From Cyclobacteriaceae bacterium (GTDB lineage Bacteria; Bacteroidota; Bacteroidia; Cytophagales; Cyclobacteriaceae): 64,000 nt of DNA. The stretch spans positions 1,550,001 through 1,614,000 of the forward strand of contig JABFRS010000001.1 in assembly GCA_013141055.1 (NCBI GenBank), read 5' to 3'. Positions 30,515-35,032 of this stretch are shown in pieces. Under the pieces are notes generated by a model. That model worked only from the letters and a program-made list of their open reading frames with translations. It ran no database searches and was not told where the DNA came from. The position numbers were made by a program, and so were the translations under genes. Numbering within the stretch: the stretch's first letter is position 1; each line of letters opens with the position of its first letter.

Positions 30515-31075
30515 TTGATAAAATCAAGCGACTTGATAGCAGACGAGCAGATAATGGATGCCGTGAAAAACGGCGATCTTCAGCAGGCCACTGTGCTGTT
30601 TGAACGATATCACAAGCGGATTTTCAACTTTCTCGCCCGCATGACGATGGACCGGGCGCTGGCAGAAGACCTGACACAGAATGTGTTTCTGAGAATGATC
30701 AAATACCGGAACAGCTACCGGGAAGGAAACAAATTCCAGTCGTGGATCTACCAGGTGGCCAGAAATGTTTTCTCGGATCATTACCAGGTTAACAAAAACA
30801 GAAGATCAGATTTTATAGACGTTGAAAAAATGAGCGACATCATCATCGATCCGGACGAAGGAGCAGCACAGAATGAAAGGGAGAATATCCTTCACCGTTC
30901 CATGGCCATGCTCAATGATGAACAACGTGAATTACTGGTGCTGACACGATTTCAGCAAATGAAATATGAAGAGGTTGCAGTGATCATGGAAACAACAGTA
31001 GCAAACATTAAAGTGAAGATCCATCGTGCGATAGCAAAGTTGAGAGAACATTATTTCGAATTGGAAAAGATCTGA
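30515..31075 (+). CDS. ECF-type RNA polymerase sigma factor
   Basis: A protein of 186 residues. Region 2 (about 20-90) contains LFERYHKRIFNFLARM and DLTQNVFLRMIKYRNSY followed by FQSWIYQVARNVFSDHYQ. Region 4 (about 125-180) contains LLVLTRFQQMKYEEVAVIMETTVANIKVKIHRAIAKLREH. There is no region 1 or 3, so this is an extracytoplasmic-function sigma factor. No ATG precedes residue 14; translation probably starts at the TTG at 30515, because DEQIM just before the ATG at 30554 fits the family's usual start. It is followed three bases later by its putative anti-sigma factor. Confidence 0.9.
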   Translation: MIKSSDLIADEQIMDAVKNGDLQQATVLFERYHKRIFNFLARMTMDRALAEDLTQNVFLRMIKYRNSYREGNKFQSWIYQVARNVFSDHYQVNKNRRSDFIDVEKMSDIIIDPDEGAAQNERENILHRSMAMLNDEQRELLVLTRFQQMKYEEVAVIMETTVANIKVKIHRAIAKLREHYFELEKI

Positions 31076-31078
31076 GTT

Positions 31079-31852
31079 ATGGAAAAGGAAAAAATAGAAT
31101 CAATGCTGATCGATTATATCGATGGTACACTGAACGACACAGAGCGTTCGATCATCGAAGCAGAGATCGCAAAAAGTGAAGAAGTCCGCAAACTCTATAA
31201 TCAGTTGCGTAAAGTCCTCGGTGCAATTGATCTCTCAGGAAAACTTGAACCAGGGTTGCGCTTGCGTAATTCATTCGAGAAGGCTCTTGAGGAAGAGATT
31301 GCCAAAGAGAAACCCACCAAGACAATCTTTTTCCAGCCAACATTTTATCGTGCGGCAGCTGCAGTAGTATTGATCTTGTCAGGAGTTGCCATTGGCGTAG
31401 TAGTGAGCAATAACCTGCAGCGCGAAAATGAAATGGCTGTGCTTAGAAAGCAGATTGAAGACAACAAGCAAATGATGCTTGGAATGATGGACAATCAGCA
31501 ATCTGCCAGCCAGCGCATCCAGGGAGTGAACGTTGCATTGAAGATTGATCGGGCGGATAATGATGTTGTTCGTGCACTTGCAAAGCGAATGAATGAAGAT
31601 CCAAATACGAATGTGAGAATGGCAGCACTGGATGCACTCAGCAAATTTCATCAGGAACCTTTGGTAAGGAAGATTCTGATTGAATCTCTGGGACAACAAA
31701 AGGATCCGGTCGTACAGATTGCACTCATTCAGCTCATGGTACGCATGAAGGAAAAGGGTGCCGTAAAAGATCTGGAAAAGATCATCGATGATAACAAGTC
31801 GATGGAAGCAGTGAAAGATGAGGCGTACACAGGAATTTTAAAACTTTCCTAA
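31079..31852 (+). CDS. Membrane anti-sigma factor with C-terminal HEAT-like repeats
   Basis: A protein of 257 residues. The cytoplasmic N-terminus (about 1-85) has the ML.DYIDGTLNDTERS.IEAEI pattern of Bacteroidota anti-sigma factors but no HxxxCxxC zinc motif. One transmembrane helix lies at about 92-110. A short coiled coil (113-130) and a periplasmic helical part (about 155-257) follow, with ALAKRMNEDPNTNVRMAALDALSKFHQEPLVRKILIESLGQQKDPVVQIALIQLMVRMKEK reading as HEAT repeats. It probably holds the sigma factor at the membrane until a periplasmic signal is bound by the HEAT part. It is three bases from the sigma gene and 24 bases from the first solenoid gene. Confidence 0.8.
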   Translation: MEKEKIESMLIDYIDGTLNDTERSIIEAEIAKSEEVRKLYNQLRKVLGAIDLSGKLEPGLRLRNSFEKALEEEIAKEKPTKTIFFQPTFYRAAAAVVLILSGVAIGVVVSNNLQRENEMAVLRKQIEDNKQMMLGMMDNQQSASQRIQGVNVALKIDRADNDVVRALAKRMNEDPNTNVRMAALDALSKFHQEPLVRKILIESLGQQKDPVVQIALIQLMVRMKEKGAVKDLEKIIDDNKSMEAVKDEAYTGILKLS

Positions 31853-31876
31853 CGAGGAAACCAAGACACACACAAA

Positions 31877-32641
31877 ATGAAAAATCGAATCAAAATATTA
31901 TTTATACTGATCATGATAACTTTTTCTTCTGCCTTCGCGCAGGAGTTCAAGCTCGCCAAAAGCACCGGACGCCTGGAGATTAACATTGGAAGGGCAACGA
32001 TACAGGGATATGATGGAAACGAAATCATCTTCACTTCTGCAGATTATGAGAAGGACAAGGACGAAAGAGCGAAAGGTCTCAAGGAGATCAACAGCCTCGG
32101 ACTTGATGATAATACTGGTCTTGGCATTAATGTGACAAGCACAGGAGAGGTTGTAACAGTTCGTCAGTTGAAAAAAACGAACTCACCAAAAATAAAGATC
32201 CAGGTTCCGAAAGGAATGATCATCTCATACTCACACGAATCCCAGTATGGAGGGGAGGTAAGCTTCAGAAATCTGGAAAATGAAATCGAGGTATCCGTAC
32301 AATATAATAGTGTCGAACTCGAAAATTGCAACGGACCAGTAACGATCAAAACAATTTATGGACACGTGGAAGGAGTTTTTGAACCCACCACGAAAGGCCC
32401 CATCTCAATCGTCTCGGTTTATGGATACGTGGATGTTTCAATTCCAACCGCCACAAAAGCGAATCTGAAACTAAGCACTTCCCATGGACAGATATATGTT
32501 GCTCCCGATTTCAAGATTGATATCAACAAGCAGGGAGACATGGTTCGCTACAGCGATAACCTTAATGGAAAGATCAACGGAGGAGGAATGAATGTAGATC
32601 TGAATTGCAGCTACGGTAAAGTCTATCTCAGAAAAAAGTAA
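31877..32641 (+). CDS. Secreted DUF4097-like beta-solenoid protein, type A copy 1
   Basis: A protein of 254 residues with a signal peptide (about 1-21, SAFAQ). The mature part is a ladder of short strands with turns marked by an aromatic residue followed by G or N: Y124 (SQYGG), Y143 (VQYNS), Y161 (IYGHV), Y182 (VYGYV), H203 (SHGQI) and Y246 (SYGKV). The spacing is 18-21 residues between the first five. This is the DUF4097 / putative adhesin type of beta-solenoid. It is the first of a four-gene set following the sigma and anti-sigma genes. It shares EFKLAKSTGRLEI and the full domain plan with the protein at 33454-34221. Its location in the periplasm or on the cell surface follows from the signal peptide. 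Confidence 0.75.
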   Translation: MKNRIKILFILIMITFSSAFAQEFKLAKSTGRLEINIGRATIQGYDGNEIIFTSADYEKDKDERAKGLKEINSLGLDDNTGLGINVTSTGEVVTVRQLKKTNSPKIKIQVPKGMIISYSHESQYGGEVSFRNLENEIEVSVQYNSVELENCNGPVTIKTIYGHVEGVFEPTTKGPISIVSVYGYVDVSIPTATKANLKLSTSHGQIYVAPDFKIDINKQGDMVRYSDNLNGKINGGGMNVDLNCSYGKVYLRKK

Positions 32642-32645
32642 AAAA

Positions 32646-33383
32646 ATGAAATTACTATCAATCATGCTGGTGCTGCTGACAGTTGGCGCACTACAAGCTC
32701 AAACCACAGTCAACAAGACAGTACCCGTACAGAGTGGACAAAAGATCAAACTCATGTTTGATTACCCCTCCATCAAAGTAAGTACCTGGGACAAGAACGA
32801 AATCTCAATTCAGGGGAAAGTAAGCATCAATGGCGGTGAGAATGATGATGCCTTTGTCATACAGTCTAAAACAAGCGGGAACACTCTAGTTATCTCAAGC
32901 GACATCAATGGTTTTAAGAATCTTCCGCAGCGCATCACAATCCGGGAAAGTAAGGGTTCACAGAAAATGGTTTTCAGAAATAAAGCTGAATGGAAAAAGT
33001 ATGCAGATGAACATGGCAGAACCTATTTCATGATGAATGAAGGTGTGGACATCGACATTACTCTGGAAATAAAAGTACCACGCAACATGGAGACACTGGT
33101 TGATTGTGTGTATGGAATGGTAGAGGTCAAGGATTTTGTTGGTCCCCTTACGGTGAAAGCAACGTATGGAGGTGTGGATGCCGCACTTATTGAAGAAACC
33201 ACTGGTGAATTGGTTGCTGAAACAAATTACGGACACATTTATTCTGATCTGAATTTTTCAACACAAAAGAAAAATGTGCAGGAAGAAGATTTTCACACCT
33301 ATGTTTCTGCCAAGCCAGGTTCAGGTCCGAAGTACAGTTTTGAATCTCAATACGGAAATGTATATCTGAGAAAGATAAATTGA
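32646..33383 (+). CDS. Secreted DUF4097-like beta-solenoid protein, type B copy 1
   Basis: A protein of 245 residues with a signal peptide (about 1-19, ALQAQ). The first half carries KTVPVQSGQKIKLMFDYPSIKVSTWDKNEISIQGKVSIN, which is shared with the type B copy at 34283-35032. The second half is a solenoid with turn tyrosines at Y156, Y174, Y195 and Y236 (VYGMV, TYGGV, NYGHI, QYGNV). It ends in YGNVYLRK, the tail found on all four proteins of this set. It starts four bases after type A copy 1, so translation is probably coupled. It may form a complex with the type A protein; only gene pairing supports this. Confidence 0.72.
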   Translation: MKLLSIMLVLLTVGALQAQTTVNKTVPVQSGQKIKLMFDYPSIKVSTWDKNEISIQGKVSINGGENDDAFVIQSKTSGNTLVISSDINGFKNLPQRITIRESKGSQKMVFRNKAEWKKYADEHGRTYFMMNEGVDIDITLEIKVPRNMETLVDCVYGMVEVKDFVGPLTVKATYGGVDAALIEETTGELVAETNYGHIYSDLNFSTQKKNVQEEDFHTYVSAKPGSGPKYSFESQYGNVYLRKIN

Positions 33384-33395
33384 AGTTAAAATCGA

Positions 33396-33413
33396 AAAAA
33401 ATTGCAATTTTTT
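33396..33413. repeat. Perfect 18-bp palindrome between the two A-B pairs
   Basis: AAAAAATTGCAATTTTTT is its own reverse complement. It lies 12 bases after the first type B gene and 40 bases before the second type A gene. The run of T residues after the dyad could make it a weak attenuator, though the stem has only one G-C pair on each side. It could instead be an operator for the second pair. Confidence 0.4.
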
Positions 33414-33453
33414 AACAATAGATAGTCAGTCATTAATTACTAAAAAGAAAAAA

Positions 33454-34221
33454 ATGAAAAAAAATATAATAACACTCGCATTTGCTATGGCCATCACTAC
33501 GATACTAAGTGCTCAGGAGTATAAGTTGGCTAAAAGCACCGGACGTCTGGAGATCAAAGAAGTCAATAACGTAACGATCGAAGGATACAATGGAAATGAG
33601 ATCATCTTTACTTCTGCTGATAGAAGTCGCGATGGCGATGATCGTGCAAAAGGTTTACGCGCTGTGAGCAGCATGGGTCTTGAAGACAATACCGGCATTG
33701 GCATCTCAGTAGTTGATAAAGGCACCGTTATTCAGGTTGCTCAATTGAAAAAAATGGATGGGCCGAAAGTCAGAATACAGGTACCGAAAGGAGTGACGGT
33801 TTTTTTCAGCCACACTTCTCCCCATGGAAGCACGGTGAGGTTTAAAAATGTTGAAGGAGAAATTGAGGTGTCCACAGTTCACAACAATGTTGAACTTGAA
33901 AATGTAACAGGACCAATGGATATTAAAACGGTTCATGGAAACATTGAGGCGGATCTTAATACAAATCTGAAGGGCCCTGTATCCATCAAATCGGTACACG
34001 GTCATGTTGATGTGACGATACCACTGGCTACAAAAGCAGCCATGAATTTGAGCACAACCTGGGGTGAAATTTTTATAGACCCTGCTATCAAGCTTGACAT
34101 CGAACCGAAAAGTGATTATGTGAAGTATGGTTCAAACAATGTGAATGGCAAGACCAATGGTGGAGGAATAGAATTCACACTCTCCTCAACACATGACAAC
34201 ATCTACCTGAGAAAGAAATAA
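33454..34221 (+). CDS. Secreted DUF4097-like beta-solenoid protein, type A copy 2 with histidine ladder
   Basis: A protein of 255 residues with a signal peptide (about 1-20, LSAQ), and a clear paralogue of the protein at 31877-32641 (EYKLAKSTGRLEI, AKGL.....GL.DNTG.GI). The turn residues occupy the same positions but are now histidines: H124 (SPHGS), H143 (VHNNV), H161 (VHGNI), H182 (VHGHV, with H184), W203 (TTWGE) and H247 (THDNI). H120 is also present in both copies. If the protein folds as a solenoid, these histidines would stack in a line along one edge and could bind metal or heme, or sense pH. This last point is inference. It ends in the shared IYLRKK tail. Confidence 0.75.
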   Translation: MKKNIITLAFAMAITTILSAQEYKLAKSTGRLEIKEVNNVTIEGYNGNEIIFTSADRSRDGDDRAKGLRAVSSMGLEDNTGIGISVVDKGTVIQVAQLKKMDGPKVRIQVPKGVTVFFSHTSPHGSTVRFKNVEGEIEVSTVHNNVELENVTGPMDIKTVHGNIEADLNTNLKGPVSIKSVHGHVDVTIPLATKAAMNLSTTWGEIFIDPAIKLDIEPKSDYVKYGSNNVNGKTNGGGIEFTLSSTHDNIYLRKK

Positions 34222-34282
34222 ATTATTGTAAGTGGTTGGTCAATCGCACCAGCCACTTACAGTCATTATAAACTATTCAAAT

Positions 34283-35032
34283 ATGAAAAAGATACTATTA
34301 CTGGTTCTTACCTGTGTTTCCATTCTCTCTCATGCTCAAACTAATTTTGAAAAGACAGTTCAGATCAAGGCTGGTCAAAAATTGTCAATCAACTTTGATG
34401 ATCCGGATATCAGGATCCAGACATGGGATAAAAATGAAATTCTGATCAAAGGCACTGTCAGTATCAATCGTGGAGAAAACGATGCGGCTTTTGGTCTTGA
34501 TGTTAATGTCACCACTCCTGAAGTAACCATCACCTCTACCCTTAAAGACAAAGAATCTCTCCCAAAGAGAATCACTATCAAAAAAGGTGAAACAGAATAC
34601 TATTTCAAGACAGACAATTTCAATGATCCTGAAATTCAAAAGTTTATTGAACAAAATGGGAAAGATTACTCCTACTCTTCAGTGGGAATTATCAAGGATA
34701 TCAAGCTTGAGATCTTCGTTCCAAAAAATACAGAGACTAAGATCATTGCAAAACATGGATTAGTTGAAGTAAAGAATTTCTCTGCCCCTTTGACAATCCA
34801 ATCTCAATATGGTGGAGTGGATGCAACGGTTACTTCTCAAAATGCAGGAGAGCTTTTGGCGCGCTCTCGTTATGGAGAGATCCTCACCAATCTCGATATC
34901 AAATTCGATCAAACGAAACCAGTTGATAAGAGTGATAAGTGGACGGAGATATCAGCAAAGATTGGAAGCGGGCCCAAGTATAATTTCGAATCGAAGTACG
35001 GCAATGTTTATTTGAGGAAGCCTAAGCCATAA
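34283..35032 (+). CDS. Secreted DUF4097-like beta-solenoid protein, type B copy 2
   Basis: A protein of 249 residues from the ATG at 34283; the longer in-frame start at 34232 would hide the signal peptide (MKKILLLVLTCVSILSHAQ). It is the paralogue of the protein at 32646-33383, sharing KTVQIKAGQKLSINFDDPDIRIQTWDKNEILIKGTVSINRGEND. The turn residues are H158 (KHGLV), Y176 (QYGGV), Y197 (RYGEI) and Y239 (KYGNV). The first tyrosine is changed to histidine here, and only that one. It ends GNVYLRKPKP. The gap of 61 bases from type A copy 2 is longer than the four bases in the first pair, so coupling may differ. It converges on the glycosylase gene one base away. Confidence 0.72.
   Translation: MKKILLLVLTCVSILSHAQTNFEKTVQIKAGQKLSINFDDPDIRIQTWDKNEILIKGTVSINRGENDAAFGLDVNVTTPEVTITSTLKDKESLPKRITIKKGETEYYFKTDNFNDPEIQKFIEQNGKDYSYSSVGIIKDIKLEIFVPKNTETKIIAKHGLVEVKNFSAPLTIQSQYGGVDATVTSQNAGELLARSRYGEILTNLDIKFDQTKPVDKSDKWTEISAKIGSGPKYNFESKYGNVYLRKPKP

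Follow-up and report, generated by a model that had tools for sequence, protein, structure and literature searches.

We analysed a window of 64,000 nucleotides (the whole stretch of DNA studied here, positions 1,550,001 to 1,614,000 of contig JABFRS010000001.1, forward strand, in the Cyclobacteriaceae bacterium assembly GCA_013141055.1), in which positions 30515 to 35032 of the plus strand hold genes for an extracytoplasmic function (ECF) sigma factor, an anti-sigma-like protein and four solenoid proteins, which follow one another as A1, B1, A2 and B2. The subject is a residue ladder, one amino acid repeated at the same corner of successive rungs, which is mostly tyrosine in A1 and mostly histidine in A2. 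This His/Tyr ladder is a real, conserved feature that the initial annotation, made from the letters of the window, had seen correctly; the observation was confirmed, and its interpretation was partly supported. All of the tyrosines, histidines and tryptophans named there are present at their positions. A1 has H120, Y124, Y143, Y161, Y182, Y184, H203 and Y246, and A2 has H120, H124, H143, H161, H182, H184, W203 and H247. The genes and codons concerned are listed below, with A2-type rows as defined in the next section.

31877..32641, plus strand: A1, Toastrack paralogue with the tyrosine ladder Y124 Y143 Y161 Y182 H203 Y246
33454..34221, plus strand: A2, Toastrack (DUF4097) protein with the histidine ladder and a signal-peptide-like start (judged by eye)
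33823..33825, plus strand: A2 H124 codon CAT, edge rung, not conserved (His in 11/31 A2-type rows, Tyr in 20/31)
33880..33882, plus strand: A2 H143 codon CAC, ladder rung at a strand break, His in 31/31
33934..33936, plus strand: A2 H161 codon CAT, ladder rung at a strand break, His in 31/31
33997..33999, plus strand: A2 H182 codon CAC, ladder rung at a strand break, His in 31/31
34060..34062, plus strand: A2 W203 codon TGG, aromatic rung off the ladder letter (Y12 W10 F6 H3 of 31)
34192..34194, plus strand: A2 H247 codon CAT, last ladder rung, at a strand break, His in 31/31

The ladder in A1, A2 and their orthologues

Both profile and fold identify A2 as a Toastrack protein, with a score of 37 bits against PF13349 (DUF4097, Toastrack; cut-off 22.9); A1 is identified by its fold and stands at the PF13349 cut-off, with a borderline 22.9 bits (23 with neighbours). 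The best fold matches of the two AlphaFold2 models include 4qrk and 4OPW, and the match to 4qrk spans model residues 1 to 235. The solenoid assumed in the initial annotation is supported, as the right-handed beta-helix of the Toastrack, with the same corner position in each rung; rungs here are degenerate and 18 to 21 residues long, and the rung spacing of a beta-sheet is about 4.8 Å. Residues 143, 161, 182 and 247 of A2 stand at strand breaks, and it is strongly supported that the ladder residue is the same corner rung after rung, where a strand breaks and where Gly or Asn is usually the next residue. The same residue was found at the same corner of successive rungs, rungs 124 and 203 being the exceptions.

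The ladder codons are TAT or TAC in A1 and CAT or CAC in A2, a single transition in each case. Pairwise alignment placed all six histidines that are present in A2 and absent from A1 opposite A1 tyrosines; five of the five ladder tyrosines correspond to histidine, versus one of the seven other tyrosines (Y184; Fisher p 0.0076). The parallel substitutions, judged in the initial annotation to be more than drift alone, are nonrandom, and orthologues keep histidine at four of the five rungs.

Matches to A2 at 1e-6 were found in 56 of the 96 genomes searched, own genome included. For the counts of A, B and cluster genes we used the best 80 of 202 loci from a scan of GTDB genomes, some of them cut by contig ends, with titles such as Chryseolinea, Ohtaekwangia, Chryseosolibacter and Cyclobacteriaceae and, more distantly, Sediminibacterium and Epilithonimonas. 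With the window included, 17 loci carried both A types, 14 A2 only and 48 A1 only, and two (L149 and L165) were divergent. The cluster of Chryseosolibacter histidini (L094) has both types, and that of Chryseolinea serpens (L093) has the A2 type alone. At positions 143, 161, 182 and 247, the 100 A rows showed the states YYYY (59 rows), HHHH (31 rows) and HYYY (4 rows), with YHHY, YYYF, FHHH, YHHH, NSSS and HS-S in one row each. Leaving out four divergent rows (two each from L149 and L165) gave 31 A2-type and 65 A1-type rows. The A2 group is defined by its state at these four columns, so that the perfect contrast there is partly by construction; a tree made without the ladder columns nevertheless recovered the same 31 HHHH rows as one group (Shimodaira-Hasegawa-like approximate likelihood ratio test support of 87). 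The A2-type rows have a mean identity of 61%, yet are exactly histidine at all four rungs in 31 of 31. The expectation that orthologues would retain the A2 histidines was therefore borne out at rungs 143, 161, 182 and 247 and failed at rung 124. Five histidines are invariant in the A2-type rows (120, 143, 161, 182 and 247). Two histidines had been listed as additional in A2: H184 is indeed Y184 in A1 but is variable (His in 20/31 A2-type and 18/65 A1-type rows), and H120 is also present in A1, occurs in 41/65 A1-type rows and lies inside a strand rather than at the corner.

The difference between the paralogues is concentrated along the ladder. Among the 233 mature columns, 12 strongly separated A2-type from A1-type rows (Jensen-Shannon > 0.8), and nine of these belong to the 30 columns that are no more than two residues away from a rung (p 5e-7); after removal of the four group-defining columns, five of eight separating columns were near a rung (26 of 229 columns; p 6e-4). 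Much of the difference between A1 and A2 thus runs along the corner edge, with separating columns 38, 87 and 103 standing away from the rungs. The acids that stand out as A2 specific are D209 (30/31 A2-type and 3/65 A1-type rows) and an inserted E36 (30/31 A2-type rows, a gap in A1).

Histidine also occurs in rows outside both groups (L149, FHHH; L165, YHHH; L077, F-H-H-H), and on a midpoint-rooted tree, the root not being inferred, parsimony placed His-to-Tyr changes at three rungs on the branch leading to 71 rows. Histidine may therefore be the older state and tyrosine derived, a direction that is only a lead with the tree rooted in this way. The idea of a special event turning A1 tyrosines into A2 histidines was not supported: repeating a single letter within a protein is general among relatives, and histidine is perhaps the older state, as suggested by the outgroup rows.

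Rung 203 of the A family and rung 195 of the B family are often aromatic (W, Y, F or H) when the other rungs are Asn or His, as seen in A2, in B proteins (NNWN and HHWH) and in A-like kin (NNNWH in 9 and NNNYH in 5 rows, identical C-terminal parts counted once, 314 of 392); other kin carry H, R or K at this rung.

One ladder letter per protein

A search with PF13349 of 148 genomes of the phylum, own genome included, matched 65 at 1e-8, so the sampling of the one-letter habit covers one phylum. The 120 DUF4097-like open reading frames (ORFs) found, which include some apparently unrelated ones such as L176_m2_0, gave 100 with a chain of four rungs and 67 after reduction at 50% identity. In these 67 nonredundant proteins, each with at least four rungs, ladder letters agreed in 58% of rung pairs within a protein and in 36% between proteins; excluding proteins with Gly as the commonest letter left 27, with agreement of 34% within versus 11% between. 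Neither within-protein value was reached in 500 shuffles. One letter occupied at least half of the rungs in most of the 67 proteins (G 37, S 8, N 8, H 2, A 2, T 1 and D 1; 8 mixed), and the 522 rung letters included G 310, S 46, N 40, A 33 and H 19, plus others.

The same habit appeared among closer relatives. Counting rungs 143, 161, 182 and 247, with rung 203 left out, 145 of 201 A-like rows had identical letters, compared with at most 11 in 2000 column shuffles, and when each distinct state was counted once, 16 of 48 were identical, compared with at most 3 (rows with rung gaps were dropped, leaving 201 of 203 A-like and 101 of 104 B-like rows). Column and letter shuffles ignore relatedness, a point addressed by the sharing of change branches on the tree of the 203 A-like rows, where each of the four rungs changes on 15 to 23 branches. 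Rung pairs shared 0.14 to 0.57 of their change branches, against a background median of 0.057 and maximum of 0.237 (1154 pairs from 49 columns with 10 to 35 changes, at least 3 apart). The background maximum was exceeded by four ladder pairs out of six, and pairs 143-182 (0.21) and 143-247 (0.14) fell below it. Among 51 letter-change events, eight made the same change at three or four rungs and five at two rungs. The dominant letter requires 22 changes on the A-like tree, with mixed counted as a state. No charged ladder residue was found at 499 A-family and 323 B-family rung positions. It is strongly supported by these alignments and trees that most proteins repeat one corner letter and that the letters of different rungs co-evolve.

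The genome of the window holds tyrosine (A1, B1 and most of B2), histidine (A2), Asn, Asp and Ser ladders. Its contig 1 carries a second sigma-HEAT-Toastrack-Toastrack cluster at 784000-794000 (L085), in which both Toastracks have Asn ladders by eye, and a DUF4097 protein at 2391093-2391827 (L256) with Asp at most corners (DDG, DDA or DDS, by eye); such an Asp row would be unusual and might bind cations. A Ser ladder was seen by eye in a DUF2807 protein of the same genome (L267). Three longer DUF4097 proteins (L173, L174 and L176), seemingly separate from A2, have histidine at many rungs, with TSHGD or TTHGD types over much of their length, and L173 and L174 begin with a hydrophobic stretch resembling a membrane anchor by eye. 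The sequences of two solved DUF2807 proteins, 3pet and 3jx8, repeat GVG and SG corner motifs, so that Val and Ser ladders may already show in public coordinates.

The gene cluster and the B family

The remaining genes of the cluster are as follows.

30515..31075, plus strand: ECF sigma factor, at the start of the conserved gene cluster (Sigma70_r2 56 bits, Sigma70_r4_2 48.5 bits)
31079..31852, plus strand: anti-sigma-like protein with an N-terminal part, one predicted membrane span and C-terminal HEAT repeats
32646..33383, plus strand: B1, related solenoid family, tyrosine ladder Y156 Y174 Y195 Y236, weak similarity to A2 (E 0.0012)
34283..35032, plus strand: B2, B-family paralogue, ladder H158 and then three tyrosines, weak similarity to A2 (E 2.1e-5)

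Both E values come from a search within the own genome. The sigma factor matched in regions 2 and 4 and scored 97.7 bits against the NCBIfam sigma70-ECF model (cut-off 42.9). The anti-sigma-like protein scored 38.9 bits against HEAT_2 (cut-off 27.7) and 29.4 bits against the NCBIfam antisigma model, under its cut-off of 100; its predicted span covers approximately residues 92 to 110 (hydropathy 2.5). A check for a PSP/lia system gave a LiaG match of 30.5 bits versus a cut-off of 285. Among the 80 relative loci, 78 had the HEAT gene, 76 the sigma gene and 78 a B gene. A1 and A2 are probably exported, judging by their N-terminal sequences, and the signalling logic of the operon is inferred from gene order. 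The order A1-B1-A2-B2 recurs in L038/L088 (one genome) and A1-B1-A2 in L041/L098 and L046/L111; the remaining two-A loci have A1-A2-B or no B at a contig end. L149 (3977-7315) holds two consecutive divergent A-B pairs, and in neither family are the two ladders alike (FHHH followed by NSSS in A, NNWN followed by SSTS in B).

Neither B1 nor B2 matched a Pfam family at a threshold of 0.1. Most B rows are YYYY (64 of 81), with single rows of HHWH (L165) and of NNWN and SSTS (both L149); these three odd rows belong to loci that have A2 alone by best hit. B2 of the window is HYYY, in agreement with the report of histidine at its first turn only, if the start is taken as the ATG at 34283 (H158 is residue 175 of the longer ORF).

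Comparison with known systems

The Toastrack domain unifies DUF4097, DUF2154 and DUF2807 and includes LiaG and the C terminus of LiaF (PMC11237479). The passages of that study considered here name 4QRK and 4OPW, describe an N-terminal seven-stranded intertwined region and predict an intracellular Toastrack coupled to PspC or LiaI-LiaF-TM. A1 and A2 resemble these proteins in their right-handed beta-helix, their PF13349 scores at or over the cut-off and their putative link to regulation of the envelope-stress type, and differ in their signal-peptide-like start (by eye) and their ECF sigma and HEAT anti-sigma-like context; the residue ladder, a feature of A1 and A2, has no mention in those passages. 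No residue ladder in DUF4097 or Toastrack proteins was found among the literature titles and abstract openings listed, a coverage in which subscription journals were mostly lacking.

Closer parallels come from other solenoids. Ice nucleation proteins are modelled as a beta-helix with a Tyr-Gly corner (GYGS) in each rung, the tyrosines being stacked and proposed as a dimer interface (PMC3196904), and one such protein has 65 repeats of sixteen residues (PMC9418140). The repeated tyrosine corner is like that of A1, but the repeats of ice nucleation proteins are many and near-regular, and the passages of PMC3196904 used here describe no paralogue switch. In the crystal structure of Crov588, an FNIP leucine-rich repeat protein, one repeat position forms a His/Tyr ladder that is Thr or Ser in sister proteins, and 8 of the 14 polyoxotungstate sites were located in its histidine patches (PMC9525666). 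This is similar to the A family in having His or Tyr at one position along a solenoid and other letters in sister proteins; however, according to the same portion of that report, the Crov588 ladder lies on a concave sheet surface and mixes His and Tyr in one protein, whereas the A family mostly has one letter per protein. The asparagine ladders of parallel beta-helices, mentioned in PMC3196904, likewise stack identical residues at one place of successive rungs. In those ladders the letter is fixed as Asn, whereas that of the A family varies between proteins. We know of no exchange among Y, H, N, S, G and D between close paralogues for asparagine ladders.

Interpretation of the ladder

The best explanation overall, to which we give about an even chance, is that the stacked one-letter corner is a docking edge and that it parts A1 and A2 by tyrosine or histidine. 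Equivalent residues of adjacent rungs would touch and stack, and this contact would disfavour unlike neighbours, so that several rungs tend to change letter at once. The corner letter would set the chemistry of one long solenoid edge. That edge could dock on a putative partner, which may be a second Toastrack, the HEAT domain or a ligand in the envelope, and its having tyrosine in one paralogue and histidine in the other would have parted A1 from A2. The corner residue may thus set what the ladder edge sticks to. A stricter form, in which the letter is a recognition code, the corner edge of each Toastrack docks on a chemically fitting edge and gene duplication is followed by a change of code on most rungs, is clearly unlikely, and a special meaning of histidine is not supported yet.

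Several results weigh against the docking edge. Foldseek gave modest template modelling (TM) scores against 4qrk, 0.45 and 0.49, and the ladder letter is often not followed at rungs 124 and 203. In the cluster, 14 of the 31 A2-bearing loci lack an A1-type gene, so that the Tyr/His switch is not simply insulation from A1. Most letter-change events (38 of 51) involve just one rung, and the lowest ladder pair has a value that is attained by 45 background pairs. In the wide set of DUF4097-like proteins, rungs were located through Gly at offset +1 and Ile, Leu or Val at +3, which fixes those two offsets, and offsets -1 and +2 are partly homotypic too, so that the whole corner motif is repeated. All-tyrosine B proteins are spread over loci with A2 alone (11/17), both types (14/18) and A1 alone (39/46), assigned by best hit, so the letters of A and B are not tied.

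The stacking could instead be purely structural, much like an asparagine ladder in other beta-helices: the corner would need a residue that can accommodate the bend and pack against the same residue in the next rung, any of Y, H, N, S, G and D would do provided that the rungs agree, and the A1/A2 difference would have no separate function. We regard this as somewhat unlikely. The diversity of letters in the wide set, the uncharged residues at the A- and B-family rung positions counted and the 22 changes of dominant letter speak for it, but the exact histidines of the A2-type rows at 61% mean identity and the clustering of paralogue differences at the rungs suggest that the edge is under selection and that its letters are not freely exchanged. 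Less probable again, and very unlikely in our estimate, is a histidine row that would sense metal, heme or protons or that would, as the case of Crov588 suggests, bind polyanions as a strip. Five invariant histidines, the polyoxotungstate sites and a designed amyloid in which a zinc site is proposed to arise from outward histidines and an outer peptide layer (PMC10008563) lend it precedent; against it, H120 sits within a strand and is shared by many A1-type rows, rungs 124 and 203 break the row, the standout A2-specific acids are D209 and the inserted E36, and A2 of the window has no Cys and therefore no c-type heme motif. Moreover, ligand nitrogens in zinc proteins are 3 to 3.5 Å apart according to the portion of PMC10008563 used here, less than the rung spacing, though side chains can lean. 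Scarcely credible is sequence homogenization, in which gene conversion, intragenic repeat duplication or a T-to-C mutational bias spread one letter through the rungs. It would suit the single transition per codon and the partly homotypic neighbouring offsets, but partial states exist (HYYY in 4, and YHHY, YYYF, FHHH and YHHH in 1 each, of 100 rows), indicating that change proceeds residue by residue, and six of the seven nonladder A1 tyrosines are not histidine in A2, which argues against plain mutational bias.

Toastrack domains have a link to envelope stress, and to our knowledge no molecular activity has been measured for them. A corner position that is mostly uniform within a protein, differs between proteins, switches in step at several rungs and marks a paralogue split points to a specificity-carrying face of the fold, and it gives a small set of residues for swap experiments. 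The ladder also offers a natural example of repeats that co-evolve while remaining different from one another, and the general one-letter habit of the family is of more interest than the single case of A1 and A2.
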